Below the pieces are notes generated by a model. It worked only from the letters and a program-made list of their open reading frames with translations. It was not told where the DNA came from and searched no databases. Made by a program: the position numbers and the translations under genes. From assembly GCA_017536635.1 (NCBI GenBank), contig JAFXHA010000090.1, positions 1 to 34,799 of the forward strand: a stretch of 34,799 bases of DNA, in the 5' to 3' direction. Positions 7,457 through 24,219 of this stretch are shown one piece after another. This DNA is from Clostridia bacterium (GTDB taxonomy: Bacteria > Bacillota > Clostridia > Oscillospirales > CAG-272). Each line of letters starts with the position of its first letter. Positions within the stretch are counted from its first letter, which is position 1.

Positions 7457-9820
7457 ATGGATATCAAAGACGTTAAAAATGAAGTTTTTTCGGGTACCGG
7501 TAAAAAAAGCTTTTGGGGAAGCGCCGCGCATCAGCTTGTGTTTTTGGGGATAGGCTATCTTTCGGGGCTTGCTCGGTTGCCATTCGGATCATCACCCTTT
7601 GGATTCGCGCTTCTCTGCTCCACTCGATCCTGCACGCTATCCGCGCTCGCGGGAGTGATACTGTCGAGCCTCGGCACGACACGCGCTCCGCTCTACATAG
7701 CGGCGTATCTTATGACCTTTGTAATGCGCATCTTGATCAGTGCGCTCACAGGAATGATCAAAAACGGTAAAAAGTCGGTCTCTATTGCCTCGTTTTTTAA
7801 GGAGCCGACCTATCTTTGCGCGCTCAACGCCTCGCTTTTTGCCTTTCTCTTTTCGCTGTATTTCTTCATCACGGGCGGATACCTACTCTATGACGGCTAT
7901 GCTCTCGCCATAAACACAGCCGTTGCTCCCATTGCGGTAATCCTTTGGAGGCGTTTTGTGCTGCAATCCGAGCGATTCTTCCCCATTGTCCGCTCAGATT
8001 GGGCAGATCTGCTTTATCTTTTCGGGCTTGTCAGCCTTTCGGCGATCGCGGCACGCGGAGCGGTCGACATCACGCTTTTAGGAATATCTCTGTCAGCTCT
8101 GCTTGCAATGACGCTGACCTTTGCAGCCGTCAGATACGGCTCTATTCTTCAAGGTGCGCTCGTAGGCGCGTTTTGCGGTCTTGCTATTGATCCTCTGCTC
8201 GCCCCAAGCTTTGTTTTCGGTGCAGTCGTGTTTGGATCACTTTCTCCGATCTCGGTTTTTCTCGGAACACTTGGAGCATTCGCCGTGTCGCTTTGGTGGG
8301 GATTCTATTCGACAGGACTCTCGGCGCTCACCTCTCTGCTCCCCGCAATGCTCGCATCAAGCCTTATTTTCACCGTGCTCGACGGACTTTTCGCACCGCG
8401 CAAAAGATCAAGCGAGGATGAGTCCGATAAGGCGTCGGACAAGCCGACAGACGACAAGCCGGATGCCAAGGATATCCTTTCAAATGAGCTTATCTCTCTT
8501 CGCTGGGACGGTGCGCACCGTTCGCTTCAAAGATTCAGCAAGGGACTCGGAGCGCTCTCGGACGAGCTATACTCTCTCTCAAAGGTATCGGACACCGACA
8601 AAAAGGACGTTTACGGAATATGCGAGAGCGCGTTCGACTCGGTCTGCTCAAGCTGCACCGAACGTGATGCCTGCCGCGCCGATTGTGAATTTTCCGAGGA
8701 GCTTGGGATAATCGGCGGAGAGCTTAGACGCGGCGAGATGGCACAAAGCTCGTCGGTGGGAGAAAAGCTACGCTCAAGATGTACGCGACTCCCCGATATT
8801 CTTGACGAAATAAATTACTCCGCGACGCTTTGGCGCGGCGTTGAAAAAGAGCGAGAGCAGACCGAGTTCTTTGCTTTCGATTACAAGATGCTCTCCTCGC
8901 TCATCGCATCCTGTGAGACCGAGCTTGGCGACGTCTGCATCTCGGACAACGCTCTCGCTGAACGAATCTCAAGTGCCCTTGAAGGTGCGGCGGTAGCGGT
9001 GCTCGGAAAGAGCAGACGCTCGATCATCGTTTCATTTAAAAAGGATTCTCTTACGGATAACGAAATTAGATCTTCCCTGCTCTCCGTGTGCGGCGCTGAT
9101 TTTACACTCACAGAAGAGCGCGAAGAAAACGGATTTACTACTCTTGTATACGAGCAAAGCCCAAAAATATCGGTAAGCTTTGATGCGCGCAGCGCGAACG
9201 CCGTAGGTGAAAGCGAGTTTTGCGGAGACAGCTACGGAGTGGTGCAAAGCGAGGACGGATCGAGATTTATCTCCTTTATCAGCGATGGAATGGGTTGCGG
9301 AAGAGAGGCGTCAGAGGCTTCAAGGACGGCGTCCGCATTCCTTAAAAATCTTATTCCTATCTCAACCGATTGCGAGCATACAGTAAGATTGCTCAATTCC
9401 TTTCTTCGCCGCCGAGGCAGCGACAGCTTAAAGGAGTGCTCGGTAAGCATTGATCTTGCCGATATCGACCTTGTTACCTCGCGTGCCGTCTTTTGCAAGA
9501 GCGGAGCCGCGCCGACCTATATACTTCGCGGCGATTCGGTGTTCAAGATCCGCGCCCGTACGATTCCCGTGGGTATCATCAGCGAGGTCGATATCAAGCG
9601 TGTAGAGCTTGATCTATACGTCGGGGATATCGTGGTTATGGTCAGCGACGGAGTTACTCAGGGCAAAGAGGAATGTCCGCGCCTTTTCGAGCTGCTTAAA
9701 AGCACCCGAAGCACCGATCCTAAACGCATCTGCGAGCTTGTCCTCAAATATGCGCTCGATTCGGGTGGAAAGGACGACATCTCTGTCCTCGTTCTCCGTA
9801 TGGATAATAAAAACAACTAG
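7457..9820 (+). CDS. spoIIE: Stage II sporulation protein E, PP2C-type serine phosphatase
   Basis: Membrane-anchored phosphatase that dephosphorylates SpoIIAA and so activates SigF in the forespore; 787 residues, close to the usual 800 or so. The N-terminal 315 residues are about ten hydrophobic segments. A charged central region follows, with a Cys cluster (CSSCTERDACRADC, near residues 397-410) seen in many clostridial SpoIIE proteins. The C-terminal PP2C domain (about 585-785) has GDSYG, FISDGMGCGREAS with the metal-binding Asp, VVMVSDGVT, and GGKDDISVLVLRM. All expected acidic residues are present. The start ATG has AAGGACGG upstream. The gene ends at a strong bidirectional terminator. 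Sporulation ability of the host is therefore likely, though one gene does not prove it. Confidence 0.95.
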   Translation: MDIKDVKNEVFSGTGKKSFWGSAAHQLVFLGIGYLSGLARLPFGSSPFGFALLCSTRSCTLSALAGVILSSLGTTRAPLYIAAYLMTFVMRILISALTGMIKNGKKSVSIASFFKEPTYLCALNASLFAFLFSLYFFITGGYLLYDGYALAINTAVAPIAVILWRRFVLQSERFFPIVRSDWADLLYLFGLVSLSAIAARGAVDITLLGISLSALLAMTLTFAAVRYGSILQGALVGAFCGLAIDPLLAPSFVFGAVVFGSLSPISVFLGTLGAFAVSLWWGFYSTGLSALTSLLPAMLASSLIFTVLDGLFAPRKRSSEDESDKASDKPTDDKPDAKDILSNELISLRWDGAHRSLQRFSKGLGALSDELYSLSKVSDTDKKDVYGICESAFDSVCSSCTERDACRADCEFSEELGIIGGELRRGEMAQSSSVGEKLRSRCTRLPDILDEINYSATLWRGVEKEREQTEFFAFDYKMLSSLIASCETELGDVCISDNALAERISSALEGAAVAVLGKSRRSIIVSFKKDSLTDNEIRSSLLSVCGADFTLTEEREENGFTTLVYEQSPKISVSFDARSANAVGESEFCGDSYGVVQSEDGSRFISFISDGMGCGREASEASRTASAFLKNLIPISTDCEHTVRLLNSFLRRRGSDSLKECSVSIDLADIDLVTSRAVFCKSGAAPTYILRGDSVFKIRARTIPVGIISEVDIKRVELDLYVGDIVVMVSDGVTQGKEECPRLFELLKSTRSTDPKRICELVLKYALDSGGKDDISVLVLRMDNKNN

Positions 9821-9844: not shown

Positions 9845-9875
9845 AAAAGGGTGTTGCAAAGCAACACCCTTTTTT
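9845..9875 (+). terminator. Bidirectional terminator between spoIIE and the glycan-type ABC operon
   Basis: A 13-bp perfect stem (AAAAGGGTGTTGC, 9845-9857, with 9861-9873) closes on AAA, with a T run on both strands. It ends spoIIE on the plus strand and the seven-gene operon on the minus strand, which converge here. Confidence 0.9.
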
Positions 9876-9902: not shown

Positions 9903-11027
9903 TTAGTCTGCTGTAAGACCGGAACGCTCGATACCCTGAACGAGATACTTCTGACAGAACAGGTACATAATGATCAGAGGGATCATTATCATGATACCCG
10001 CAGTATTCTTAACTGCCGCGGTATACATTCCTTCATCGGTTCCGCCCGAATCAAGCGAAGAAGGTATCTTATTGAGGTCCTTCATAAAGATCTTCGAGCC
10101 GTTACCCGTAACACCGCCAAAGAACTGGAAGGTGTAGAAGTCATCGGTCCACTGCCACGAGAACGAGAACAGGAATACAGTTATCATCATCGGAACAGAG
10201 ATAGGAAGAATAATCTTGAAGAAGGTATGCATTATACCAGAACCGTCGATATATGCCGACTCCTCAAGCTCATCGGGCACGCCCTTGAAGAACTGACGGA
10301 GAAGGAAGATATACAGACCGTTCTTGAATGCAAGGCCGGTGATCGAAAGGATAACGAAGGGCCAATACGTACCAAGCAGGTTGATTCCGTCAGGCTCAAT
10401 TCTTTCGAAGAATTTACCCGTTTCGGGAATGATATCTACCACACCCTCAAGAAGCGAGGTTCCGAAGAGTCCGCCGCCGTCAAGGAATCCGATAATTCCG
10501 AGGATATCGAAATATCTGAATCCAAGTCTCATCGAGTATGCAAGAGTCTGGTGAGGAATTACAAGCGAAAGGATAACCGCCATAAAGACGAACTTATTTC
10601 CCTTGAACTTGAACTTTGCCAGACCGTAAGCGATAAAGCAGCATACAAATGTCTGCAATACAGCCGAGAGCACCGACAGGATAAGCGTGTTGGTAAATGC
10701 GCTGACGTAATTGTTTTCCGTCCAGATCGCCTTATAGATCTTAAGCGTAAAGTTCTTGGGGATAAGGTTTACCGTAGGGTCGGTAAAGTCCTTAGCGTCC
10801 ATGAGCGAGCTGGAGATCTGCGAGAAGAAGGGGAAAAGAACTATGTAAGCTATACCCAGAAGAAGTATAAATCTTACGATAAACCAAAGTACCTTTTTGA
10901 TAAAGAACATTGAAAGGAACTTAGCCTTCAGACGTTCTTTAAGAGGGGTTCTCTCAAAATCAACTTTAATTTTGTTTTTTGTTTCTTTAAGCGTTTTAGG
11001 CTTATTATCAAAATTCTGTGCGTTCAT
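9903..11027 (-). CDS. Carbohydrate ABC transporter permease, MalG-type (second pair)
   Basis: Inner-membrane permease, 374 residues, last gene of the operon. It has the binding-protein-dependent transport fold with the EAA loop ELEESAYIDGSGIMHTFFKI near residue 280, which contacts the ATPase. It is longer than the roughly 280 residues typical of MalG-like subunits. There is a charged cytoplasmic N-terminal extension of about 45 residues before the first helix, and an insert of about 45 residues (around 185-230, with GFLDGGGLFGTSLLEG) in an extracytoplasmic loop. AGGAGGGGA precedes the ATG; the gap to the upstream MalF-type partner is 12 bp. No ATPase gene is adjacent. The substrate is presumably an oligosaccharide, by family. 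Confidence 0.92.
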   Translation of the reverse strand: MNAQNFDNKPKTLKETKNKIKVDFERTPLKERLKAKFLSMFFIKKVLWFIVRFILLLGIAYIVLFPFFSQISSSLMDAKDFTDPTVNLIPKNFTLKIYKAIWTENNYVSAFTNTLILSVLSAVLQTFVCCFIAYGLAKFKFKGNKFVFMAVILSLVIPHQTLAYSMRLGFRYFDILGIIGFLDGGGLFGTSLLEGVVDIIPETGKFFERIEPDGINLLGTYWPFVILSITGLAFKNGLYIFLLRQFFKGVPDELEESAYIDGSGIMHTFFKIILPISVPMMITVFLFSFSWQWTDDFYTFQFFGGVTGNGSKIFMKDLNKIPSSLDSGGTDEGMYTAAVKNTAGIMIMIPLIIMYLFCQKYLVQGIERSGLTAD

Positions 11028-11039
11028 TTTATCCCCTCC

Positions 11040-11996
11040 TTAATCCTTTTTCTGGTAGAAGACAAATGCTGAGAAGATGCCGGCAACTACCGCTATAATA
11101 AGTATAACGACGAGGAAGTAGATCCACGACATTGCCGAGCTGACAACATTATCTGTCAACTGGTAATTGCTGATAAACGTCATAACCACGTTGGATTTTG
11201 ACGTAAACGAGTCAATAACCGTATACACCGCGTTAACCAGGATCATCGGGCTGATCATCGGGAAGGTGATCTTCCAGAAGGTCTCCCAAGCGGTAGCTCC
11301 GTCGATCTGTACCGACTCGTAAATTGCGGGAGAGATAGACTGAAGACCTGCAAGGAATATAAGCATCTGAACACCCGAACGGTTTACTATGTCGAAAATG
11401 TTGTTAATCGCCTCAGTAACGTAGGTAACGAGTCCCTGACCGACCGCCATGTTGGAGAACAGCATAGCTACGTCAAACGAGGATACCAGCTCCTCGGACG
11501 TGCTTGCGCCCGATCCGTCATCGATTCCGCCACCTTCCATGGCTGCTGCCATGTTGTTCGCTTCCTGAATACTGTCAAGAATACCGGTCGAGATAATAAC
11601 GGGGATAAAGAATATTGCTCTGAATGCCGCTCTTCCGGGCATCTTCTGGTTAAGAAGAACCGCCATAAAGAGCGAGAATATAAGTATCATCGGTATATCG
11701 AATACCATGTCAAGCAAACCGTTGACAAGTGTTTCGATAAAGTCTGCACCGACAACTCCGAAGAGGGCTTCTCTGTAGTTAGCCCAGCCTACGGGAGTAA
11801 GTATACGTCCTCCCTCATCTGCCTGCGATACATCACAGAACGTGTACTGTACCGATTCAATGAGTATGGGAAGATATATGAGAATAAAGCCGATAACGAA
11901 GGGGGCAACGAAAAGCCAACCGCCTCTCGCCTTCTTTTTATCAAGGGAGGAAGCTCTTCTTCTCTTTACGCTTTTAACTTTTACATCGTTAGTCAT
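11040..11996 (-). CDS. Sugar ABC transporter permease, MalF/UgpA-type (second pair)
   Basis: Inner-membrane permease, 318 residues and about six helices. A basic N-terminus (KVKSVKRRRASSLDKKKARG) leads into GWLFVAPFVIGFILIYL. The EAA loop, AIYESVQIDGATAWETFWKI, is near residue 235. A hydrophilic insert rich in Gly, Asp and Ser (EGGGIDDGSGASTSEE, about residues 155-170) lies in an extracytoplasmic loop where ordinary MalF-like permeases are shorter. Together with the following gene it forms a second permease pair in the same operon. GGGAGGT precedes the ATG, and 20 bp separate it from the DUF5696-like gene upstream. Transport of a sugar is inferred from family. Confidence 0.92.
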   Translation of the reverse strand: MTNDVKVKSVKRRRASSLDKKKARGGWLFVAPFVIGFILIYLPILIESVQYTFCDVSQADEGGRILTPVGWANYREALFGVVGADFIETLVNGLLDMVFDIPMILIFSLFMAVLLNQKMPGRAAFRAIFFIPVIISTGILDSIQEANNMAAAMEGGGIDDGSGASTSEELVSSFDVAMLFSNMAVGQGLVTYVTEAINNIFDIVNRSGVQMLIFLAGLQSISPAIYESVQIDGATAWETFWKITFPMISPMILVNAVYTVIDSFTSKSNVVMTFISNYQLTDNVVSSAMSWIYFLVVILIIAVVAGIFSAFVFYQKKD

Positions 11997-12016
11997 AAAT
12001 TTTTACCTCCCTTTCA

Positions 12017-15000
12017 TTATTCAGCCTCGCTTACGATAAGATATCCGTAAGCGTCAAGCGTGTAAGTAACGCCGTCAAGCGTAACTATTACCTTATAGTT
12101 GTTGAAGTTAAGCAGGAACGCCTTGCCGTTCTCGAATTCCTCGTAAACGACCTTGTTCTTGTCTGCTGCGTAACGGTCATCGGTATCAACGACAACCTCA
12201 TCAGGCTCCTCAACGACAGCCTCAACGTACTGATATTCCTCAACTGTAATATCATCTCCGAATGCTTCCTTAGCAACAGCGTAAAGCGCTGCAGCCTCAG
12301 CGAGCTTAGTTTCTTCAATGTCTGCATAGAGCGCCGAAGCAGCAACGATAGCATCAGCCTTAGCTATAAGCTCCTGCTTATAATCCTCATTGAGCTCAGA
12401 GGCGGTAATAACTGCCTTGTGAGCATCAACGGATGCTGCGAATGCGTTGATCTCTCTGAGTAACGTAATGTACTCATCGTAGAAGCTGTACGCCTCTTCG
12501 CCGATCAAAGCGTTAATATCTTCGATTGCCTTTGCGCGCGCATCCTTAGCCGCCTTATACTTAGCGTTTACCTCTTTGTTTTCGTTAAAGAAGTCCTTAA
12601 TATTGTTGGTAGCTGTGGTGAGCGCCTTCTTTGCTGCCTTGTACTCCTCGGATTCAGTGTCGGTGTTCTCGTCTGCATCCAATGCTTCAAGCGCCGCATT
12701 AGCATCCTTCCAAGCGGTAACGAGCTCTGCGCTTATTTCAGCCTCGAGTGCGTCGTAAGCCGTTGCATAAGCGTTAGCAAGCTCTGCGTACTTGGTAGCA
12801 AACTCGGTATTGAGCATTGCATCAAGAGTTCCATCCTCAAGCATTTCATTATACTTAATAATAGACTTTCTTGCATTAAGTATTGCCTGTCTCTCTGCCT
12901 CGGTAGCAGCGACGTTAGCAAGCTTTTCTGCCTCGATAGCAGCGTTTATAGCAGCCTGCGCATCACGCTCGAGCTCATCAGCATCGGGAACACGTGTTGC
13001 ACCGTTGATGAACTCGTGCTTTACGATCTTGCTTGTCTGAACGTCAGAAAGCGCATCGCTGATCTCGTTGTAAAGCGAGATGATATCGGGTGCCCATACG
13101 CTGTAATCGATAGAATAGTACTTGTTAAGGATCATATCGTTCTTGAGGTTATTTGAGTTACGGTATGCAAGGATAAACTTCAGAGCAGATCCGCTCTCAA
13201 TTGCCTTAAGCATAGCGTAATCAAGGTTACCTTCCATATTTACAGCAGTTCCCGAGATCTCTACGTATCCGTGCAATACGATTCCAAGGAAAGGAACCGA
13301 TGCAGAGGACTGAGCGTAACGGCTGGAGTCGGTTGCGATATTGGTAATATAGTCAACGTACTTCCAGGAATATGCATTTCCGGCAGAGGTCATTACCTTG
13401 TCGTAATGCTCGTCTAAGTATTCGAACGCTATCTTGGTGTAACCCTCAGAGTCGTCTCTGTTATAAGGCTCATCCTCATCAAAGTCGGAGCTGAGGTAAG
13501 AGCCGAGGGTGGATACCGAGATACCCATAGGATCTTCCTTGAGATAGGTCTCGGTGAACTTCTCGTAGAACTTGCTCATATAAGCTGCGGAGAAGATAAG
13601 ATCGTAGTAGCTGATGTAAGTCTGCTTTGTTGCGTTGTATTCCTGCAGGCTTGCATAACGGTTATCGATCGTTCTTGCCGCGTGCTTCATAAGCGAAAGT
13701 CCGTCAAAGAGTGTATTGCTGTGTATAAATACGAAATCTACGTCGGGATATACTCCAAAGCCTTTTTCCTTTGCGTATTCCATAAGCTCGTCGAAATCGA
13801 CTCCGCCTTCCTCAACAGCCTTTTCCCACTTGAGTCGGTAAGGCGTTGCGGGAGCAGTAAGACCGCCCTTTGTGAATCCGTTAAGGATAAAGTTTACGTT
13901 ATCTATTCCCTCTTCTGCAAGATCGTCGTAAATAGCCTGGATATCTGCAAAGGTAACGAGAGGAGTCATTACCTCAACAGGAATCGAAAGGATCTTTTCG
14001 GTGGTCTCAAGCGCACCGAGAGCTTCTATATATAAAGGAAGCTTTTCGGTGTCCGCAATAGTATCGTTGGTAAGAGGAGTAAGAACTCCGTTATTCTCAA
14101 GATACTCACGGTAAGCCTCTGCCATTCCGTAGTAGGAGCAAGGATAAGTATTATCAAGCTTCTTCTCTGCCGCAACGTCGGCATCGGTAAGCATAATATA
14201 TCTTATCTTATAAGTTCCGGTATACTTTCTGTTAGAAACAACGCTGTAAGACTTGTTTGCCGCGATGGAAACAGAGTCGCCAAGGTTGTAAGAATCCTTA
14301 GGTCTGGGAGTTACTGTTGCTCTGATGGTGTTCTTGCCCGTTGTCTTATCATGCTTGAGCATAAGAGATACGAGAGAAGCACCCTCTTCTACGATAGCAA
14401 CGAAGCCTCTGTCCTTAGAGTAAGACTCGGTTACCTCTTTGGTCGTAGGATCAACGGTTTCAAAGACCTCGGTCTCAACCAGACCGTATACAGGGTATCT
14501 GATAACCTGCTGATTGGTTCCCGAAATGGAGTGGTAAGCGTAATCCTGACCGTACACCTTACCGGAGACCTGAACGGTCTTACCGTAGGTCTTGCTTTCC
14601 TGGAAATCAAACAGTGTTCCCGATCCGTCCGGGAAGAAGGAATATCCTTCATTATTTGAGGAGCCCGCTCCCATAAAGGGAAGCATTTCAACGCCTTCAA
14701 GCTGGTAGTGCGTCTCGTCAAAGCGGATTCCGTTTGCGGGAAGTCTTACCGAAAGTCCCTGCTCATCGAGCGTGTACTCAAGAGCAAGCTTGAAGAGAGG
14801 AGGAGCGATCTCATCATCCTCATACTTTACTGCTGCGTGATCTGCGTCCATCTCCTCGTACGTATAGTCGGGAGCGTAGGTCTTGATATACCCCTCAAGC
14901 AAACGCTTGTTTCTCGTAGAAGTATTAGCAAGTGTGTATATAGCAACACCTTCCTTGGTGATCGGGAAGTTGTTGTACATTGCGTCGTTTCCGCCTGTTG

Positions 15001-15664
15001 CGGGATCGCGCAAGAAGTAGAATGCCGAGAGTGCTTCCTTAGCGCCTCTCTTATTAACGTTTTCCTTGAAGCCGTTTTCATCCATAGTAGCGCAAAGGTT
15101 TTCAAAGGATTCAACCTTGAGCCATACGGGAAGGAGCATTCTTGCTTCCTCAGTACCGATAGAATACTCTATGCGGATACCGTCCTTAATGTAGCTGACG
15201 TTAAGGTCGTTACCCATTGCGGAGTTATCGGTCTTGTTGCCCATCAAATTCTTATTCGCGCTGTAATAGGTCGCAGGGGAGCCTGTCGAGGGATCCAAGA
15301 AGGTGATAGCAAGCTGAGACATCATCTTTGCCTTTTCAGGCTCGGTGGTGTTGACCGATCCAACGTCATAAGGATTGGTGAAAAGCACTTCACCGCTCTC
15401 TATATTCTGAACCGCTACCTCTCCGGTATACTCGTCAACGTAAAGTCTGTATCCGTTCTGCTGAAGACGAAGGTCCATCTTTGCAAGCTTTGCTTCAGCC
15501 GTTTTGATTCCGTTGGTGCTCTTGATATACTCATAAGCCTTAGTAGTCGGCGACGTCTTAAATACGTATTTAGGAGCGTCATCCTCTGCAGCGGCTATCA
15601 GTGTAAACGTACCGACAAGCATCAGCGCAGCCAAGAGAAGCGATATTATTCTTTTTGTTTTCAT
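12017..15664 (-). CDS. DUF5696-like secreted protein with a long helical insert
   Basis: Large exported protein, 1215 residues. It has a signal peptide (MKTKRIISLLLAALMLVGTF, cleavage near AAA-ED at about 27). The region from about 60 to 880 resembles proteins annotated DUF5696, which occur beside sugar ABC transporters in Clostridia and Paenibacillus. Parts of 540-850 alternate strand and helix with scattered Asp/Glu (KGFGVYPDVDFVFIH, STLGSYLSSDFDEDEPYN), which could be a TIM-barrel hydrolase fold; that is inference. Residues 890-1160 are Ala/Glu/Lys-rich helix, then a beta-strand segment (AFLLNFNNYKVIVTLDG) closes the protein. It is the fifth gene of the operon, 14 bp after the NHL/YIP1 gene. 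It may cleave or hold a surface glycan. No catalytic residue can be assigned with confidence. Confidence 0.8.
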   Translation of the reverse strand: MKTKRIISLLLAALMLVGTFTLIAAAEDDAPKYVFKTSPTTKAYEYIKSTNGIKTAEAKLAKMDLRLQQNGYRLYVDEYTGEVAVQNIESGEVLFTNPYDVGSVNTTEPEKAKMMSQLAITFLDPSTGSPATYYSANKNLMGNKTDNSAMGNDLNVSYIKDGIRIEYSIGTEEARMLLPVWLKVESFENLCATMDENGFKENVNKRGAKEALSAFYFLRDPATGGNDAMYNNFPITKEGVAIYTLANTSTRNKRLLEGYIKTYAPDYTYEEMDADHAAVKYEDDEIAPPLFKLALEYTLDEQGLSVRLPANGIRFDETHYQLEGVEMLPFMGAGSSNNEGYSFFPDGSGTLFDFQESKTYGKTVQVSGKVYGQDYAYHSISGTNQQVIRYPVYGLVETEVFETVDPTTKEVTESYSKDRGFVAIVEEGASLVSLMLKHDKTTGKNTIRATVTPRPKDSYNLGDSVSIAANKSYSVVSNRKYTGTYKIRYIMLTDADVAAEKKLDNTYPCSYYGMAEAYREYLENNGVLTPLTNDTIADTEKLPLYIEALGALETTEKILSIPVEVMTPLVTFADIQAIYDDLAEEGIDNVNFILNGFTKGGLTAPATPYRLKWEKAVEEGGVDFDELMEYAKEKGFGVYPDVDFVFIHSNTLFDGLSLMKHAARTIDNRYASLQEYNATKQTYISYYDLIFSAAYMSKFYEKFTETYLKEDPMGISVSTLGSYLSSDFDEDEPYNRDDSEGYTKIAFEYLDEHYDKVMTSAGNAYSWKYVDYITNIATDSSRYAQSSASVPFLGIVLHGYVEISGTAVNMEGNLDYAMLKAIESGSALKFILAYRNSNNLKNDMILNKYYSIDYSVWAPDIISLYNEISDALSDVQTSKIVKHEFINGATRVPDADELERDAQAAINAAIEAEKLANVAATEAERQAILNARKSIIKYNEMLEDGTLDAMLNTEFATKYAELANAYATAYDALEAEISAELVTAWKDANAALEALDADENTDTESEEYKAAKKALTTATNNIKDFFNENKEVNAKYKAAKDARAKAIEDINALIGEEAYSFYDEYITLLREINAFAASVDAHKAVITASELNEDYKQELIAKADAIVAASALYADIEETKLAEAAALYAVAKEAFGDDITVEEYQYVEAVVEEPDEVVVDTDDRYAADKNKVVYEEFENGKAFLLNFNNYKVIVTLDGVTYTLDAYGYLIVSEAE

Positions 15665-15678
15665 CGTTTTCTTCCTCC

Positions 15679-17928
15679 TTACAATCTGAACTGAAGCTCG
15701 GTTACAATGTTCGTTACGAAGCTTACCATCTTGCCAAGCAGCGATGTGAAGAGTATCGCAATAAACATAATAATTATCATTGCCAACAGTGTTCCAAAAA
15801 TAGTAAGAATGTTCTTACCCATCGAGTAGTCGTGAGTTACCTGCATTCCGAAGAATATCAGCATACCTGACCAGATATACGACGCGGTAAGCACAACGTT
15901 TACTATATCGACCTCTTCTGCGACTACGAAGTTAGTAGCAATGGTTGCGGGGATCATTATGAGGATCATAGGAACCAATGCGTAGCAGGTCGCAATGAAG
16001 ATATCCTTAAGGCTTCCTTCGCCGTCGAAGAGCGTTGTGAGACACCAGTTACCGATTACCCAAAGTGCAAGCGGTACGCAAACACTCAATACGCTTCCAA
16101 AGAAGGTATTATAAAGCTCCTGAGGATTTACGATATATCCTCTACCGATACCATTGTAATAGAATGCGACCAGGAGCGCGCCGAGTATCGTTACTGCAGC
16201 TCTAAGCGAACCTCTCTTTTCGTGCTTGAGGTCCCAGAAGCCGTCAAAGGGATGGAATATTACGTGGAATGCGTACAGGATCTCCTGACCGTAGGTTCTC
16301 TTTTCACCCGCGGTAGCAACTCTCTTGTTTACCTTCTTTGCCCAGCCCAAGAACTTGGAGCAGCCTACGCAGATCGCGATAACCGCAACGGGTATAAGAA
16401 GAATGAACTTAGAGAGCCAATCCTTTCTGAGCTCCTTGAAAGCTACCGAGTAGTTCTCAGTATCGTATGCCGCCTGATAATACTCTATTGCCATCTCAAG
16501 CTCATCGTTCTGGTAATAAGATTTACCGATTCCGATATAAGCTGTATCGAAGTTAGCGTTTCTCTTGAGGATCTCCTTCCAGTCTTCGATCGCGAGGTCG
16601 TAACGTCTGTTGTTCTGATTGTTCAGAGCGCCTATAAGGACGTTTCCGTACTCGGTTCTCTCATAAACGGTAAAGGAGCGAGCATCCTTGTCAAGAAGAA
16701 GCATCTTGTCACCCTGGTAAACGATAGCCGAAAGCTTTTCGGACGTAATATTACCAAGCTGATTTCCCTTATCGCCGAAGGCGAACAGGAGGTTTCCTTC
16801 GAAGTCATAGGTAAATACCTTACTTCTCTTCTGGTCGATTACAGACCAGGTCTTTTCGGGACCAACCGCTACGTCAACAAGCGTCGACGGTCCAAACAGT
16901 GTGTCCGAAACTCTGAGTCGAGCAAAGTCTATTTCACCGGAAGGCGGAAAGAATCCGTTACGTCTCATGATCTCGTCGCCCGCCGCGTTAAGCATCTTAA
17001 CGGGAGCGTAATCGCCGGACTTGGATCTGGAGTTGATCGCACTTGTTACGTTTTTCTCGTCGATCGAGCTTGTGGTGGCGTAAATAAAGTCGCCGGAAAG
17101 AGTTACATTATTAAATTCAGTAGATACGTACTGACGAGCCGACTTTCTCTGCTCCTCGGACTGGAATCTTCTCCAGATTCTGTCCCAAGCCGAGATAACG
17201 ACCTTCTGTGCGCCGACGAAGGATGTGAACTCACCCTCATCGGTCATAACGATAATTCCCTGATAAGTAGAGGACGAAACGACGTAAAGTCTTCCGTACT
17301 GGTCTACCGCTACGGATACGGGCTTATAAGCCGCTCCGTTATCAAAGAGCTCGGACTGCGGTGCGGGAATTACCTTGCTGAAGCTTCCGTCAAGGTTAAA
17401 GGTTACGATTCTGCTCGCGTTGGTGTCGCAGATGTATATTTGTCCCTTAACGAAGTCGGTTCCGACCATTCTGTCGGAAGTAACGAAGATACCCTTAGGT
17501 GCAGTCAGATTATCCTGAACGCCCTCACCGTTGATGAAGTCGTCAATAATGTACTGTAGCTTGTAGTATCTGTCGAGTACTACGATTCTGTTATTATCCG
17601 TATCTGCGATATAAACGTTACCCTTGTCGTCAGTCTCAATATCCGACGGATTATTGAGCTGTGCGTATATCGAAAGCTGCTTGCCGTCGATAATATTGGT
17701 GGGGTCAAGCTCGGGATAGAAGCTTGCAAGCTTTTCCAGATCGGAAAGGCCCATCTTCTGTCCGTCGATAGCTTTTACGGGAGTATACGCCGCGGGAGAT
17801 CCGAGCGCCGTACCCGATATCGAGTAGGTATACGTCTGATACGGCTCGGAAGCGCTTACACTCATAGGAAGAGAGAGAAGCATAACTATCGCAAATACCA
17901 AACAGATGATTGCTGTTAATTTTTTCAT
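15679..17928 (-). CDS. NHL-repeat beta-propeller / TPR / YIP1 membrane protein
   Basis: Multi-domain membrane protein, 749 residues. After a signal peptide (about 1-27, ending VSASE) come NHL-type repeats in the extracytoplasmic region (about 85-440), for example NPSDIETDDKGNVYIADTDN and GQIYICDTNASRIVTFNLDG. Two TPR-like helical repeats follow (about 455-530: YDLAIEDWKEILKRNANFDT and YYQNDELEMAIEYYQAAYD). A membrane segment lies near 533-553, then a C-terminal YIP1-like domain of about five helices (575-745). The gene lies between the first permease pair and the DUF5696-like gene with 14-bp gaps, so it belongs to the transporter operon. A propeller joined to a membrane domain suggests a scaffold or sensor. 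Its function is not established. Confidence 0.8.
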   Translation of the reverse strand: MKKLTAIICLVFAIVMLLSLPMSVSASEPYQTYTYSISGTALGSPAAYTPVKAIDGQKMGLSDLEKLASFYPELDPTNIIDGKQLSIYAQLNNPSDIETDDKGNVYIADTDNNRIVVLDRYYKLQYIIDDFINGEGVQDNLTAPKGIFVTSDRMVGTDFVKGQIYICDTNASRIVTFNLDGSFSKVIPAPQSELFDNGAAYKPVSVAVDQYGRLYVVSSSTYQGIIVMTDEGEFTSFVGAQKVVISAWDRIWRRFQSEEQRKSARQYVSTEFNNVTLSGDFIYATTSSIDEKNVTSAINSRSKSGDYAPVKMLNAAGDEIMRRNGFFPPSGEIDFARLRVSDTLFGPSTLVDVAVGPEKTWSVIDQKRSKVFTYDFEGNLLFAFGDKGNQLGNITSEKLSAIVYQGDKMLLLDKDARSFTVYERTEYGNVLIGALNNQNNRRYDLAIEDWKEILKRNANFDTAYIGIGKSYYQNDELEMAIEYYQAAYDTENYSVAFKELRKDWLSKFILLIPVAVIAICVGCSKFLGWAKKVNKRVATAGEKRTYGQEILYAFHVIFHPFDGFWDLKHEKRGSLRAAVTILGALLVAFYYNGIGRGYIVNPQELYNTFFGSVLSVCVPLALWVIGNWCLTTLFDGEGSLKDIFIATCYALVPMILIMIPATIATNFVVAEEVDIVNVVLTASYIWSGMLIFFGMQVTHDYSMGKNILTIFGTLLAMIIIMFIAILFTSLLGKMVSFVTNIVTELQFRL

Positions 17929-17942
17929 ATTCTCCTCCTAAA

Positions 17943-18818
17943 TTAGTCTTTCATACCACTCGAGCCCATCGTTTCGATGATGTTCGACTGTGTGATTATA
18001 AATACCGAAATGGGCACGAGCATCATTATAACGGTTGCCGCTGCACTCGCACCTGCACGCTTGATACCGCCCGCCGTGATCTGCTGGATCGCGTAGTTGA
18101 GCGACTTGAGCTGCTCGGAGTGAATGTAGATAGATGCGCCGGCATTCCAGAGATCCTGGAACGAGTAAACGATAAGCGTGAGCCAACCGGGCTTAACCAT
18201 CGGCATTGCGATGACCCAGAAGGTCTTGAGCTCACTCGCACCGTCAAGACGCGAGCTCTCAAGCACCGCATCGGTAACGTTGGTCTCCATAAACTGCTTC
18301 ATAAGGTAGAGACCGAGGGTAGATCCCCATGCGGGAATAATAATTGCCCAATAAGTATCAATTATTTGTAATGCACTCATAAGAATGAAGCAGGTAACTG
18401 CCGTAACTGTCTTATGGAACATAAGAGAGGTTCTTACGAGCTTAAACATCGACTTTCCGCCGGGGAATTTGATCTTTGCGAAAGCATACGCTGCAAGAGA
18501 CGAGAAGAAGAGGTTTCCGATAACGCCCGCAACAGAGGTAAATACCGTGTTGAAGATGTATCTTGAGAAAGGAACCAAGCTTCCGCTCATCAACGTAAAC
18601 AGATCCTTAAAGTTATTAAACGTAGGTTTAGCAACGTAAAATCTCGGAGGGAACATCCAAAGCTCATCCAAAGGCTTCAAGGACTGAATAACAACGTAAT
18701 ACATAGGAAGGAACATAAATATTCCGAAAATTACAAGAATGAATGTAATTCCTGCGTCTCCGCCTCTCGAACGGGCGAGCACGACTTTATGATTTCTTGT
18801 TCTTAATTTCTTTGCCAT
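17943..18818 (-). CDS. Carbohydrate ABC transporter permease, MalG-type (first pair)
   Basis: Inner-membrane permease, 291 residues and about six helices, with the EAA loop VLESSRLDGASELKTFWVIA near residue 205. Length and helix spacing are ordinary for the family. The ATG at 18818 is preferred: it follows the upstream stop by one base (TGATATG) and has AAGGTGG about ten bases before it. An in-frame ATG at 18854 inside the upstream gene lacks a ribosome site. It pairs with the MalF-type gene just upstream and probably serves the large binding protein encoded first in the operon. Confidence 0.93.
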   Translation of the reverse strand: MAKKLRTRNHKVVLARSRGGDAGITFILVIFGIFMFLPMYYVVIQSLKPLDELWMFPPRFYVAKPTFNNFKDLFTLMSGSLVPFSRYIFNTVFTSVAGVIGNLFFSSLAAYAFAKIKFPGGKSMFKLVRTSLMFHKTVTAVTCFILMSALQIIDTYWAIIIPAWGSTLGLYLMKQFMETNVTDAVLESSRLDGASELKTFWVIAMPMVKPGWLTLIVYSFQDLWNAGASIYIHSEQLKSLNYAIQQITAGGIKRAGASAAATVIMMLVPISVFIITQSNIIETMGSSGMKD

Positions 18819-18819
18819 A

Positions 18820-19767
18820 TCACGAGCCCACCTTTGAAAGAACCTTTTTAACAAGCATATTCGAGCCGATCATGACTGCGAAAAGCACAACCGCGATCGT
18901 AGACGAATAACCTATTTCGAAACGCTGTCCGCCGTAGTCATCAAGGTGATGGACTATGGTGTGCGCCGCGTAGTCAACCGACGGGAATCCGCAAAGTGCG
19001 GTAACAACGCCTCCGAAGCCGAAGGAGTTGGTAATTGCCATAACCGCACCGAACATAAGCTGCGGCTTCATGTTCGGCAGGGTGATGAACCAGAATTCCT
19101 GCCATCTGTTTTTGATACCGTCAACCGCGCCCGCCTCAAACTGAGCCTTGTCGATTCCCTGCAAGCCCGCGATGAACGCGAGGAAGGAGGTTCCGAGCGA
19201 GGTCCAGAGTGCGACCACGATACAAAGCGGCATTACCCAATCCGCGTCCTCAAAGAACGCGATTTCCTTATTGATAACGCCAAGCTTCATCATCCAAGCG
19301 TTTGCCCAACCGTAAGCGTCACTCGAGAAGAGCGTCTGCCATACGAGGTAAACCTGACCCGAGATAGAGGGAGCGTAGAAGATAAGGGTTACGATCGCTC
19401 TGAGCTTGGGAGGCAGCTCGTTGATGAACCAAGCGATGATAAGTGACATAAAGTAGGATACAGGACCTACGATCGCCGCGAAGATAAGCGTATTCTTACA
19501 AGCGGTAATGAATATGTCATCATCAAGGAAAAGTCTTATGTAGTTGTCGAGCCAAACTATGTTCGGCATCTGAAGCATATTAAAATCCGTAAAGCTGATA
19601 AATATCGAAAGAACGACCGGCAAGACGGTAAAGCAGGTGAAGACCAGCATATAAGGGAGTATCATAAGATACGCTACCTTATTACGCTTCATCTCTTTCC
19701 AAGTCCACTGCCATTTCGTCATATCCTTACGAGCTACAGCCTTTTTTGTCGCTGTTTTCTGTGACAT
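18820..19767 (-). CDS. Sugar ABC transporter permease, MalF/LplB-type (first pair)
   Basis: Inner-membrane permease, 315 residues and about six helices. A basic N-terminus (residues 1-30) leads to VAYLMILPYMLVFTCF, then LSIFISFTDFNML, a classical first-loop motif. The EAA loop, AQFEAGAVDGIKNRWQEFWF, is near residue 220. AAAAGGAGAAAG precedes the ATG. It lies 35 bp after the binding-protein gene and one base ahead of its MalG-type partner. It transports a glycan by family inference. Confidence 0.93.
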   Translation of the reverse strand: MSQKTATKKAVARKDMTKWQWTWKEMKRNKVAYLMILPYMLVFTCFTVLPVVLSIFISFTDFNMLQMPNIVWLDNYIRLFLDDDIFITACKNTLIFAAIVGPVSYFMSLIIAWFINELPPKLRAIVTLIFYAPSISGQVYLVWQTLFSSDAYGWANAWMMKLGVINKEIAFFEDADWVMPLCIVVALWTSLGTSFLAFIAGLQGIDKAQFEAGAVDGIKNRWQEFWFITLPNMKPQLMFGAVMAITNSFGFGGVVTALCGFPSVDYAAHTIVHHLDDYGGQRFEIGYSSTIAVVLFAVMIGSNMLVKKVLSKVGS

Positions 19768-19802
19768 GTACTTCTCTTTCTCCTTTTTAGATTTTATCTA
19801 CA

Positions 19803-22800
19803 TCATTTATACGCTTCATACGTTTCAAGTGCATCAGCTGCGCTCTCAAGATCCGAAACGACGCCTGCGAACAGCGACGAATCAAGCTCTGCAAGTGCAT
19901 CCGACATACTTCTTATGGAAGCATAGTCCTCGGTCTCGTAGCCTTCGATCAACTTGAGCAGTCCGTTGCATACATCGTCATACGCTGCCTTGTAATCGTC
20001 GGACTCACGGATCTCAAGAAGCTTAGTTTCAGCCTCTTCCAAACGCTTCTCAGCGAGTGTCTGTCCGTCCTTGAGAGTTTCAAGTCCGAACTCCTCACGC
20101 TTACGTGTGATCTCAACGTTTATAGTTTTAATGTAGCTTTGAAGCTCGGTTACGGGATCAAGTCCGTCGTTGAAGGCGGAGAGGAACGCGAACTTCGTGT
20201 AACGGTCGATAATGTAGCTTCCGGGGTAGTTAGGAACTGCTGCGAGGTTGTTGAACTGAAGCTGGAGCTGTTCGTACTCCTCGTCGGTCCAAGGCAAGCT
20301 CTCAAGCGCTGCCTCGTTAGCAGTTGCGTGCTTTGCGGAAGGTCCAAGTATTGCAACCATCTCGTTAGAGTAATCTATCTGACACTGTGCGCCTACGTGC
20401 CACTTAAGGAACTTCCAAGCGCCCTCGAGGTCCTCACAGCCGTTGATGATCGAAATAGCGGTCGCGGTGGAAACCGAAACGTTGTTGATTCCGCCGTCCT
20501 CGGTAGCATATCCGGGCATCGGATAGAAGCTCCAGAGACCCTCGATCTCGGTAGCGAATACCTTGAGCTGGTTGTAGGTTGCGGTATATGTAGCAAATCC
20601 TATAGGCATCTCACCCGTTCTGAAACGGTTCGGGAAGTCATATTTATAGGGGAATGAATATTCGGTGAACATTGCGCACATCGTATCGAATGCATCAAGT
20701 GCGACGTTGGAGTCGAGGTTGATTCTCATACCGCCGTCAGCAAAGAGCTCACCGTCCATCTGATAGAGGAAGATCTTACAGTCGTTATGCATTGCGATCT
20801 GCATGTTATTTGCCTGGAGTATCGGAATTGCTTCCTTTACGTCTTCCCAGGTCTTAGGAATATCAATATTGAGGTCTGCGAGAATGTCCTCACGAACGAA
20901 CATCATATTAAAGTTCTGCGTCTCGGGCAAGCCGTAGGTGTGAAGCTGTCCGTGTCCGCATTTGTAATGCTCCTCGTAGTTTCCGTTCTCGCCCGCACAT
21001 TCGATCTGAAGAACCATCATAGCCGCCTCGTTGAATTCAGCGGTCGCAGCGTCGAGCTCTTCCGCACTTACGATCTCATCAAGAGGAGTAAGCGCGCCAC
21101 GAATCGCGTAGTTTATAACGTCTCCCTGTGCGATACCGATATAAACGTCAGGTCCCATTCCCGAAAGAATAGAGGGGAGAAGCGTTGCTCCTGCAACGAG
21201 CTTAAGGTTTACAGCTACGTTGTAGTGAGGGGTGAAATCGTCGTTGATAAGTCCGCGGATAACCTGAGACTGATCACGACCGTATGCAAGCCATACCTCG
21301 ACCGACTCGTTCTCGTCGATCTCCTCCATAGCACCCATTCTGTCATAGTTTCTGAAGAAGCTCTGGAAGAAGCTTCCCATCTCGTATGCAAAGGACTTGA
21401 AGAAGCCTGCCTTAGCCGCAGGAAGCTCATCGTCGTCTGCGGGCTGGATAACAAGGAAGTCAAGTGTAAGGGGCTGCGTCTTAGCATCGCCGACCCAGGT
21501 ACCGAGCGAACCGATATACGTCTTGAGCTGCTCGAGGTTCTTAGCGATAGCGTTATCATCCTTACCCATCGTGTCAAGAAGTCTTGATACCTGATCGAGA
21601 GTTGCGGTCATCGAGCTTCCCTTGATGTTCGAGCTTTCGTTAAGCTCCTTGGAAACTGCCTCGAGGACGCCCTTCTGCTTGATCATATCTCTCTTGGTGT
21701 CAGGCATTACTCTTGAGAATCCGTAGTCGCGGTACTCGTCGGGGGTGGTTCCCGTAAGCTTCAGTATGTTAAGGTAATCGGCGTTGATGTTGTCAAGCGA
21801 TTCCTGAACTCGTCTTACGATATCACCCATTTCACCGAGCGATACCTCAAGTCTCATCGTATAAACGACGCCTTCCTCAAAGTAGAACTTGAACTTGGTG
21901 TCGTTTGCATCGGTAAGCATTCCCGACTGCCAATCAGACGCGTAAGAGAACTGAAGTCTGGACGCTTCCTCAAAGGGAACGCCGTCGTAATATCCGTCCT
22001 CGCCCTCAGCAAGCGTTTCGTCGCTGTAAAGGTAAAGGATACGGGACGTATACATACCTTCGAGCGTGCTCTGCTTGAAGCGGGTAGCTATCTGATACAT
22101 ACCGCTCTTTTCAACAGAGAACTGATACTCTATCCACTGGCTGGCGTTCTGCCACTTATCACCGCCAACGGTGTTAAGCACGGTTCTGTCGTTAGCCGCG
22201 GGAGAGTTGATAGCGCTCGTGTTATCGGATGCGGGGTAAATGGTCTGGGAAGACACAGCCGAGAAATACTCAGCCTCGATCTTTATCTTGCCCTCGCCGT
22301 CTCCCTTGCCCTCATACTTTGCAAGGTAATCGTCGTAGCTCATTCTATCCTCGTGAGGAATGAGCTTGATATCCGAAATAACTATAGGCTCGTTAACAGA
22401 CTCGAGCGAGACAGTAACCTCGCCGGTTTCCTCATCAGGACCTATAACAAACTCAAAGGTATCCTGCATAAAGCCGTTGGAATCCTTGAAGTTGTAGGTG
22501 GTCCAGCTGGGAGCCTGCTGCAAGCTCGCGCGGATCTCGTTAAGGTCGATATCGATGGTAAAGAATCTTACCGTCTGCTCATCAACGAGCTCTGCGATAT
22601 CCGATGTCCAATATTCCGGCATCGTATAAGAAACGCACTCAACGGTCTTTCCCTTGACCGTCTTCTCTACCTTTTCTGCCTTGATGCCAAGCTTCTCGGC
22701 AGCGCTTATGTAGTCCTGTGCGCTCTCGCCATCGGGAACCTCAAACTGTCCGTCGGGATATTCGTTTTTCCAGATCTTCGAAATGGTAAGGTATCTCGCC

Positions 22801-23327
22801 TCCGCAAAGGGAACCGAGCCGTTGATCATAAAGATCCTTTCGATAGATGCAGACTTGTTGGCAATGGGATAATAGTCGATAGCCAAGCTATACTTCTTAG
22901 CCTCCTCAATGCCGTCGAGCGTCCACGTAACAACACCGGAGCTGGGTGTGTAAAGTCCGGTTTTGCCGTCGAATTCATCAACGTAAGCTATCGTGCTCTT
23001 GTCAACCTTGTCAAGCGCATCAGCCTCGGTTGAAAATTCGTTCTCAACGAGTCCTTCCTCGTTGTAAACGACGCCCTTCTTCGAGACGTACGTCCAATTT
23101 TTAACCGCCGAAAAGATAAGCTCCTCCTCGGCAGCCTCGACATCCTTGTTGTCATCGACGTAGTCGTTGTACGAAATCGCATTTAACAGCTCTTTAATAT
23201 CGCTCGTCGTGATATCAGTAATGGACGAGTCGCCGCTTGCAGCGCCTACGCCCAGCGTACCGCAGCCGATAAGCATTATCGCAGCAAGCAAAAAAGCCGT
23301 AATTTTTTGAAATTTCGCCTTTTTCAT
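19803..23327 (-). CDS. Very large extracellular solute-binding lipoprotein with carbohydrate-binding-like N-terminal regions
   Basis: Substrate-capture protein for the ABC importer, 1174 residues against 400-550 for ordinary members. The signal sequence ends in a lipobox (MLIGC, Cys22), so it is probably lipid-anchored. Residues 50-340 form a beta-rich region of unknown family. About 347-475 resembles a carbohydrate-binding module (IKIEAEYFSAV through WIEYQFSVEKSGMYQIATRF). A helical stretch follows (500-650). The MalE-type binding domain is at about 670-1040 (ESVEVWLAYGRDQSQ, LLPSILSGMGPDVYIG, YGLPETQNFNMMFVRED, WEDVKEAIPILQANN). A helical tail closes it. The ATG at 23327 has AGGAGGAAG upstream; a farther in-frame start lacks one. 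It is the first gene of the operon. Confidence 0.9.
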   Translation of the reverse strand: MKKAKFQKITAFLLAAIMLIGCGTLGVGAASGDSSITDITTSDIKELLNAISYNDYVDDNKDVEAAEEELIFSAVKNWTYVSKKGVVYNEEGLVENEFSTEADALDKVDKSTIAYVDEFDGKTGLYTPSSGVVTWTLDGIEEAKKYSLAIDYYPIANKSASIERIFMINGSVPFAEARYLTISKIWKNEYPDGQFEVPDGESAQDYISAAEKLGIKAEKVEKTVKGKTVECVSYTMPEYWTSDIAELVDEQTVRFFTIDIDLNEIRASLQQAPSWTTYNFKDSNGFMQDTFEFVIGPDEETGEVTVSLESVNEPIVISDIKLIPHEDRMSYDDYLAKYEGKGDGEGKIKIEAEYFSAVSSQTIYPASDNTSAINSPAANDRTVLNTVGGDKWQNASQWIEYQFSVEKSGMYQIATRFKQSTLEGMYTSRILYLYSDETLAEGEDGYYDGVPFEEASRLQFSYASDWQSGMLTDANDTKFKFYFEEGVVYTMRLEVSLGEMGDIVRRVQESLDNINADYLNILKLTGTTPDEYRDYGFSRVMPDTKRDMIKQKGVLEAVSKELNESSNIKGSSMTATLDQVSRLLDTMGKDDNAIAKNLEQLKTYIGSLGTWVGDAKTQPLTLDFLVIQPADDDELPAAKAGFFKSFAYEMGSFFQSFFRNYDRMGAMEEIDENESVEVWLAYGRDQSQVIRGLINDDFTPHYNVAVNLKLVAGATLLPSILSGMGPDVYIGIAQGDVINYAIRGALTPLDEIVSAEELDAATAEFNEAAMMVLQIECAGENGNYEEHYKCGHGQLHTYGLPETQNFNMMFVREDILADLNIDIPKTWEDVKEAIPILQANNMQIAMHNDCKIFLYQMDGELFADGGMRINLDSNVALDAFDTMCAMFTEYSFPYKYDFPNRFRTGEMPIGFATYTATYNQLKVFATEIEGLWSFYPMPGYATEDGGINNVSVSTATAISIINGCEDLEGAWKFLKWHVGAQCQIDYSNEMVAILGPSAKHATANEAALESLPWTDEEYEQLQLQFNNLAAVPNYPGSYIIDRYTKFAFLSAFNDGLDPVTELQSYIKTINVEITRKREEFGLETLKDGQTLAEKRLEEAETKLLEIRESDDYKAAYDDVCNGLLKLIEGYETEDYASIRSMSDALAELDSSLFAGVVSDLESAADALETYEAYK

Positions 23328-23619
23328 AAATCTTCCTCCTGAATTTTTTTGTTTTGAGAGGTAACCCCCTCCAAGACTTGATGTTGCCATCAATGTTTTG
23401 ATTTTCCTTGCAGTGTGCGTCGCGACGCCGATCTGCGTCGGACGCCGAAGACGGCTTTCGTTTCACCGAGCATAGCCGCCGGCAACACCAAACCTCACTA
23501 AAACAGTGCGTCAGTACGCACCGCAATAACATTTTCCGCTGCTTTTATCCGCGTACGCAACCGCTCACCCAATGCGCGCACACGCGAGCAAAAGCCTCGA
23601 AAAATGCTCGAAAATCATT
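23328..23619 (-). promoter_or_regulatory. Long 5' leader of the glycan-type ABC operon
   Basis: About 290 nt separate the predicted transcription start from the first ATG. The leader is much richer in G and C than the flanking AT-rich spacer. It contains a short hairpin with a GCAA tetraloop on the minus strand (TTGATG-GCAA-CATCAA, 23378-23393) and several imperfect stems around 23405-23470. No known riboswitch class is recognised, and there is no obvious terminator with a U run, so regulation could be at translation or RNA stability, or absent. Confidence 0.4.
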
Positions 23620-23625
23620 GCACAT

Positions 23626-23654
23626 ATTTTAACATATATTGAAGCAAAAGTCAA
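23626..23654 (-). promoter_or_regulatory. SigA-type promoter of the seven-gene glycan-type ABC operon
   Basis: On the minus strand TTGACT (23649-23654) is followed after 17 bp by TAAAAT (23626-23631), each one base off consensus. No other promoter of similar quality was seen in the operon, whose internal gaps are 1-35 bp. No clear catabolite-responsive element was found near it. Confidence 0.75.
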
Positions 23655-24149
23655 GACGCCCTTTGGGGCGGCGACCGTCTGAGCGAAGTTCCCGAACGAC
23701 AAAAAATATTCTTTTTTTGACTAAATTTCGTCGTTTTTTATATGATTTTTTTCGTTTTTTGATCACGGTAAATCACATTTACTCGTGTTAAAGTCTATTT
23801 TTACAATACGCCACGATTTTTGTACATTTTGACAAAAGAGCCTTGCCGCCAAAATTATTTCGGTCTCGAAAGTAATTTTTCTTTACTTTTACAAAAAGTG
23901 TAAAAACTTTCTTTGCGTCATTTTTAACCATTTTATTTGTCAAAAATGCACAAATTTGGGAGCTTATTTTCTACACCTCGAAATCACAATTTTTTCACGT
24001 TTTTTGCGTTTTCGGTCAAATCAAGGTCGCAAATTTACCTTCAATGCACTTTTAAACCCCGTTTTTTACATTTTATTGCACAAGTTCCATATTTTTACAT
24101 CAGGCAGTTTTTTGCGTTTTTCCGAGCTCAAAAATAGATCAAAAATAGA
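23655..24149. other. AT-rich non-coding spacer
   Basis: About 500 bp with no convincing gene on either strand. It is dominated by T and A runs, with several short self-complementary stretches (such as TTTTACA-AAAAG-TGTAAAA near 23895). At its right end an 11-bp unit, AAAATAGATCA, is repeated almost three times (24130-24159). Any promoter or small RNA in it is not visible by eye. Confidence 0.5.
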
Positions 24150-24188
24150 TCAAAAATAGGCTGCCGGACAATCGTCCGACAGCCTATT
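24150..24188 (-). terminator. Intrinsic terminator of the suf operon
   Basis: On the minus strand a 15-bp stem (AATAGGCTG at 24180-24188 pairing with 24155-24163, continuing as CGGAC/GTCCG with one G-U pair) closes on a GATT tetraloop and is followed by a T run. It lies about 30 bp after the SufB/SufD-like stop codon. Confidence 0.88.
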
Positions 24189-24219
24189 CGGCAATATATA
24201 CAAATTGCACGTCAAAAGA

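Follow-up and report, generated by a model that had tools for sequence, protein, structure and literature searches.

CUT1-type ATP-binding cassette (ABC) importers of plant-fibre degraders are reported to combine a substrate-binding protein (SBP) with a MalF/MalG permease pair and no local ATPase, as in those served by MsmK in Caldicellulosiruptor bescii and in XuaABC of Ruminiclostridium cellulolyticum (PMC8579813, PMC12838199, PMC9675976), and genetic evidence has been presented for one MsmK powering CUT1 importers in C. bescii (PMC8579813, PMC12838199). Analysis of a 34,799-nucleotide stretch of DNA from a Clostridia bacterium (GTDB order Oscillospirales, family CAG-272; assembly GCA_017536635.1, contig JAFXHA010000090.1), hereafter the window, revealed a conserved two-importer operon that belongs broadly to this known kind and includes a pair of accessory proteins not yet studied. 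The seven-gene operon differs from the described importers in having two permease pairs, a protein combining NHL, TPR and YIP1 domains (NHL-TPR-YIP1, or YIP) and a protein of the DUF5696 family, and its binding protein is about two to three times the usual size and carries two domains resembling carbohydrate-binding modules (CBMs). The main text of PMC8579813 contains neither "YIP1" nor "NHL", that of PMC9675976 does not contain "YIP1" and that of PMC12838199 does not contain "NHL". In the YknWXYZ system of Bacillus, the YIP1-family protein YknW is reported to modulate ABC transporter assembly (PMC4887032), providing a precedent for the YIP1 part of the operon. However, YknYZ is a MacB-like exporter, whereas the partners in the operon are CUT1-type importers, and, unlike YknW, the YIP1 domain of the operon is fused to, or encoded beside, an NHL-TPR protein.

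We consider it probable, with some reserve, that the operon encodes two CUT1-type oligosaccharide ABC importers that are made together and share an unlinked UgpC/MsmX-type ATPase. Importer 1 would consist of the giant surface binding protein and the permeases F1 and G1, with CBM35-like domains holding the polysaccharide and the SBP fold handing over oligosaccharides. Importer 2 would combine permeases F2 and G2 with a pair of accessory proteins dedicated to them, NHL-TPR-YIP1 acting as a membrane-anchored scaffold and DUF5696 as a glycan-binding and positioning subunit whose catalysis is probably lost. The shared, unlinked ATPase would energise both. In this frame DUF5696 and NHL-TPR-YIP1 can be understood as partners dedicated to a single importer permease pair, and the operon hints at an unstudied way for Firmicutes to grab plant-fibre fragments. 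The original prediction had named the operon the window's best candidate for an undescribed system, and no description of it was found in the open-access literature searched, the limit within which "undescribed" holds.

Organization of the operon

The seven open reading frames (ORFs) all lie on the minus strand, running from 23327 to 9903 of the window. In gene order, with their flanking signals, the features are:

23654-23626, minus strand: promoter-like site TTGACT-17-TAAAAT with TG ahead of the second hexamer (consensus match only)
23327-19803, minus strand: giant binding protein, module 1, 1174 aa (Pfam, predicted model, profile matches)
19767-18820, minus strand: F1, MalF/UgpA-type permease with EAA loop, module 1 (Pfam, EAA test)
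18818-17943, minus strand: G1, MalG/UgpE-type permease with EAA loop, module 1 (ORF open from TTG 18854)
17928-15679, minus strand: NHL-TPR-YIP1 with signal peptide, NHL propeller, TPR, transmembrane segment and YIP1 domain, module 2 (Pfam, hydropathy)
15664-12017, minus strand: DUF5696, secreted, GH129/GH129-like/GH101-type fold, probably non-catalytic, module 2 (Pfam, fold, conservation)
11996-11040, minus strand: F2, MalF-type permease with EAA loop, module 2 (Pfam, EAA test)
11027-9903, minus strand: G2, MalG-type permease of 374 aa with EAA loop, module 2 (Pfam, EAA test)
9873-9845, minus strand: terminator-like hairpin of 13 pairs after G2, readable both ways (pattern match only)

Intergenic gaps are 35, 1, 14, 14, 20 and 12 bp, so that ORF and Pfam analysis bore out the seven closely spaced minus-strand genes (gaps of 1-35 bp) of the original prediction. 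The 1-bp F1-G1 gap holds if G1 starts at ATG 18818; a start at TTG 18854 would overlap F1. For the binding protein, a start at ATG 23327, with an AGGAGG ribosome site ahead of it, gives 1174 aa from a full ORF of 1196 aa. The single promoter that had been proposed corresponds to the match at 23654-23626, which coincides with the end coordinate of the original prediction and is a match to consensus only; the 961-bp upstream region contains seven promoter-like matches (two minus, five plus) against 1.9 expected. The matches sit in an extended AT-rich gap ahead of the first gene (23340-24220). Rfam and tRNA scans of the whole window found nothing.

Two separable modules in a conserved gene order

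Comparison of 161 loci, the window included and each chosen through a DUF5696 or YIP match, showed that all seven genes are present in 136, with the order SBP-F1-G1-YIP-DUF-F2-G2 in 133 of these and the rotated order YIP-DUF-F2-G2-SBP-F1-G1 in the other three (L174, L177, L179), a degree of conservation that rules out a chance arrangement. The same block recurs in many genomes, and the operon is not special to the window. Plasmid copies annotated with the same gene order were found in Butyrivibrio fibrisolvens and Paenibacillus cellulosilyticus, the latter with ugpC directly upstream. Just downstream of the P. cellulosilyticus plasmid copy (L202), several LLM-class flavin-dependent oxidoreductases lie amid extra binding proteins.

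The remaining 25 loci comprised three with DUF5696 only (L072, L181 and L182, the last of which stops 140 bases past the gene), four with YIP-DUF-F2-G2 only (L167, L168, L171, L173) and 18 cut by a locus end, where the absent genes fall past an end at most 453 bases away. None of the loci examined carried YIP only, so the random loss of DUF5696 or YIP genes that would have told against a coordinated system was not seen. All three DUF5696-only loci belong to a single family (f23), each in a different genome, and no other gene of the seven was seen close by.

Twenty extra loci, selected because they contain a giant binding protein or an additional copy of DUF5696, included nine with both modules, some of them cut at their ends. 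SBP-F1-G1 occurred alone within longer stretches in L214, L222, L223 and L227, and likewise in L228 at a contig edge; YIP-DUF-F2-G2 occurred alone in L229-L232; and L218 and L219 were too short to be judged. Module 2 without adjoining module 1 was therefore present at seven loci (L167, L168, L171, L229-L232); L173 is left out of this count, as its YIP gene runs off the contig and its module content cannot be judged. Distance matrices from the 136 complete loci fall into blocks that agree with the modules seen from gene order, with correlations of 0.919-0.967 within {SBP, F1, G1}, 0.944-0.967 within {YIP, DUF, F2, G2} and 0.839-0.925 between the two.

Since each module occurs without the other in some loci, two separable modules are, at the level of sequence comparison, a better description of the operon than a single machine, with NHL-TPR-YIP1 and DUF5696 going by the same comparison with the second permease pair. 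Of the coordinated machine with possibly two transport complexes that had been suggested, the two importers remain the favoured reading and the single machine the less favoured one. A single supercomplex, in which the giant binding protein would serve both permease pairs and YIP1 and DUF5696 would bridge them, seems to us quite unlikely: the fixed gene order, the co-occurrence at genome level even where some copies are unlinked, and the lack of an ordinary binding protein near any of the 23 loci of the window's family speak for it, but each module is found alone and the distance matrices divide into two blocks.

Spread of the accessory pair

Of the 295 genomes sampled from the window's order, 161 carry DUF5696 (144 strong matches) and 148 carry YIP (141 strong); in the phylum sample, 46 of 398 genomes carry DUF5696 (37 strong). 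Weak matches were removed before counting (17/161 for DUF5696, 7/148 for YIP and 3/144 for the linker in order genomes; 9/46 for DUF5696 and 17/56 for the linker in phylum genomes), and the counts handle genomes as independent of kinship, so that the Fisher value for DUF5696 and YIP carries no correction for phylogeny. The conserved co-occurrence that the original prediction had proposed as a check proved near-perfect among the 295 order genomes, 140 having both proteins, four DUF5696 only, one YIP only and 150 neither. A similar picture came from a profile built on the helical linker of the giant binding protein itself, with 138 order genomes having DUF5696 and linker, six DUF5696 only, three linker only and 148 neither; the corresponding numbers in the phylum sample (n = 398) were 37, 0, 2 and 359. 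The DUF5696-YIP pair is thus present in about half of the order's sampled genomes (140/295), and the seven-gene block occurs in other orders as well.

Permeases and ATPase

BPD_transp_1 (Pfam) was found in all four permeases, F1 and G1 scoring slightly under the curated cut-off in the window scan and over it in the whole-genome search. A regular-expression test found EAA coupling loops in 147/147 F1, 150/152 G1, 147/151 F2 and 133/147 G2 proteins, so that both pairs have the loop-bearing permeases of CUT1 importers. F2/G2 are not taken to have arisen by recent duplication of F1/G1, as F1/F2 and G1/G2 cross-scores are about the same as those against five other sugar permeases; judged by these scores, F1 and F2, and likewise G1 and G2, are distinct subfamilies and no recent copies.

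Retention of the ATPase-coupling loops by all four permeases in nearly all loci argues against the permeases and NHL-YIP1 forming a nutrient sensor instead of a transporter, an idea prompted by the YIP1 and NHL proteins, which are non-standard importer parts, and by the two-component system upstream of the B. fibrisolvens copy. The ten most recurrent neighbour families scanned included no evident regulator, although one of them is a ROK protein (17 loci), from a family spanning kinases and regulators. We regard a sensor as highly improbable.

The seven-gene operon contains no ATPase gene, and a candidate for the shared ATPase, of UgpC type, stands elsewhere in the genome, scoring 480 bits against an NCBIfam cut-off of 432. 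Its three scanned neighbours are tex, folD and lgt, and none of the 861 ORFs flanking the loci matches it above 200 bits.

The giant binding protein

The giant binding protein consists of a signal peptide, two CBM35/CBM6-like domains, a helical linker, an oligosaccharide-SBP fold and a helical tail. SBP_bac_8 (Pfam) spans residues 738-1025 of the 1196-aa ORF, and the predicted model (pLDDT, the predicted local distance difference test, 86.5) has near its C-terminal side a fold matching structures of oligosaccharide SBPs, so that domain and fold agree with the binding proteins of CUT1 importers. The two beta-sandwich domains ahead of this fold are homologous to each other (hhalign probability 99.7), and their profiles match carbohydrate-binding structures (best E 2.1e-9 and 2.3e-4), including entries named carbohydrate binding family 6 and several others that we take to be CBM35 domains. 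Among 37 members of the second domain, 10 matched Golvesin_C, eight CBM_35 and four CBM_6 at E <=0.1; the window's own second domain matched none of these three.

The module 2 accessory proteins

In NHL-TPR-YIP1, the Yip1 (PF04893, 62.3 bits against a cut-off of 28.6) and NHL domains score over their Pfam cut-offs and TPR below, and hydropathy segments indicate a multi-span membrane protein, as in the YIP1 family. Many relatives have the protein split into two genes, NHL-TPR and YIP1.

The DUF5696 protein (Pfam match, 425 bits) has the beta-sandwich, TIM barrel and C-terminal beta domain of GH129/DagB-like proteins, with 9-15% identity to the GH129 enzyme NagBb (5wzn) and the GH129-like DagB (5opq), but its barrel lacks their conserved pair of catalytic carboxylates. 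Also unlike NagBb and DagB, its gene is found with YIP and a permease pair at every judgeable locus except three. A barrel-only profile matched only NagBb in the PDB, in an alignment ending before the catalytic residues, and the catalytic positions were therefore located from the order and spacing of the strands instead of by superposition. The end of strand 4 is mostly S/T/G, the end of strand 5 is Asn in 147 of 157 homologues, and, of the barrel D/E residues, E823 alone is conserved at >=85% across the 157; it sits where the helix preceding strand 8 ends. In such barrels, this helix end lies on the face away from the active site. DUF5696 is thus probably a secreted GH129-fold protein that has lost catalysis. 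An active glycosidase with relocated catalytic residues, trimming captured glycans at the membrane before import by F2/G2, is unlikely given these strand ends and the single conserved carboxylate on the non-active face. A GH129 (PF11308) search of 199 phylum genomes gave no match, but no control matched either, so that the search says nothing about absence. Matches of the full DUF5696 profile to influenza haemagglutinins (E 0.013 and worse) were taken as chance.

Lipid anchoring does not appear to be general, because a lipobox-like motif was found in few members (16/144 binding proteins, 23/162 DUF5696, 11/166 YIP). DUF5696 is unnamed in the open-access literature searched. Its median length is 1182 aa at loci without an ordinary binding protein nearby (n = 135) and 872 aa at those with one (n = 25), and giant binding proteins are likewise longer at the former, a contrast across 161 loci that is confounded by lineage and short flanks.

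An apparent binding-protein gap at F2/G2

Within the flanks fetched, an ordinary SBP is present at 19/23 loci from other orders, compared to 5/35 loci of the order's other families, 1/80 named loci and 0/23 loci of the window's family. These flanks are short (about 1 kb on the upstream side and 6-7 kb on the downstream side for most unnamed loci, and at most about 4.5 kb per side for named ones). The single binding protein noted in the original prediction is thus a trait of the window's lineage, most loci from other orders having an ordinary one nearby. Six of the seven loci with module 2 but not module 1 have an ordinary binding protein in the fetched flank, versus none of four clear module-1-alone loci; the exception among the seven is L171, with 4.6 kb covered downstream. 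The window's genome encodes four SBP_bac_1 proteins, none of them an orphan: besides the giant binding protein, two come with a permease pair each and one forms an in-frame read-through with a permease. F2/G2 is therefore without an obvious classical receptor of its own in this genome; an unseen one is possible, as the assembly is 88% complete.

These data raise the testable question of how an importer pair without a neighbouring binding protein receives its substrate. One speculative answer, which we think has a rather low chance of being right, is that in the window's lineage DUF5696, held at the membrane by NHL-TPR-YIP1, is the substrate receptor of F2/G2 and replaces a lost classical binding protein. 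If so, the part played by a Venus-flytrap binding protein in ABC importers would here be taken over by a GH129-fold pseudo-enzyme. A pseudo-glycosidase feeding an importer would be a new way of supplying ABC importers, relevant to the competition for glycans among gut fibre degraders.

Substrate and weighing of the proposal

Outside the order, 23 of 123 flanking proteins contain SBP_bac_1, and the same set includes GH3 (four), GH10 (three), GH26, GH42 and GH8 (two each) and GH30 and GH43 (one each); GH35, GH106, GH28 and pectate lyase genes are also among the other-order neighbours. The window's own genome carries GH10 and GH43 genes elsewhere. Together these point to plant hemicellulose or pectin oligosaccharides as the substrate we infer. 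Within the order (107 flanking proteins), the 25 commonest of the 140 families seen include no recurrent carbohydrate-active enzyme (CAZyme). Dockerin type I domains are present in 3 of these 107 proteins (flanks of L036-L071), hinting at cellulosome-like parts.

The lack of recurrent CAZymes in own-order flanks would also fit a housekeeping role in the window's lineage, in which the operon scavenges the cell's own envelope glycans and not plant fibre, as would the joint occurrence of DUF5696 and YIP in 24 of the family's 25 sampled genomes, mostly with one YIP copy each. We judge this very unlikely, as relatives in other orders adjoin enzymes for xylan, mannan, galactan and pectin, a herbivore gut is named in the record titles of many close relatives, and GH10 and GH43 are present in the genome.

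Several points weigh against the proposal. The analysis establishes which genes are present and in what conserved order, that the modules can separate, what folds are predicted, and that EAA loops and an ATPase in the genome exist; the substrate, the sharing of the ATPase, the catalytic inactivity of DUF5696 and the formation of any complex are inferred. The substrate is borrowed from relatives, because no CAZyme recurs among the commonest own-order flank families. The UgpC-type ATPase is a putative partner of this operon, and a second MalK-type ATPase adjoins another importer in the genome. The loci were selected by DUF5696, YIP or linker matches. The mirror-tree ranges just touch (F1-SBP 0.919, G1-YIP 0.925), with no species-tree correction, and the two phylum genomes with a giant binding protein but no DUF5696 have it on 3.8- and 4.3-kb contigs.

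Neighbouring genes

The operon is flanked on one side by SufBD, ABC ATPase, RNase III and GIDA domains and on the other by a SpoIIE phosphatase domain and FtsK parts (Pfam). Ten window neighbours scanned beside the operon included neither the glycoside hydrolases nor the regulator of a polysaccharide-utilisation locus. The FtsK/SpoIIIE gene lies in two overlapping minus-strand frames (3414-4511 and 4454-6238), with FtsK_4TM in one ORF and motor and gamma in the other, which may reflect a frameshift or an assembly error. A 787-aa protein with the SpoIIE phosphatase domain (7457-9820, plus strand) converges on the operon, and the hairpin at 9845-9873 could terminate both G2 and this convergent gene.

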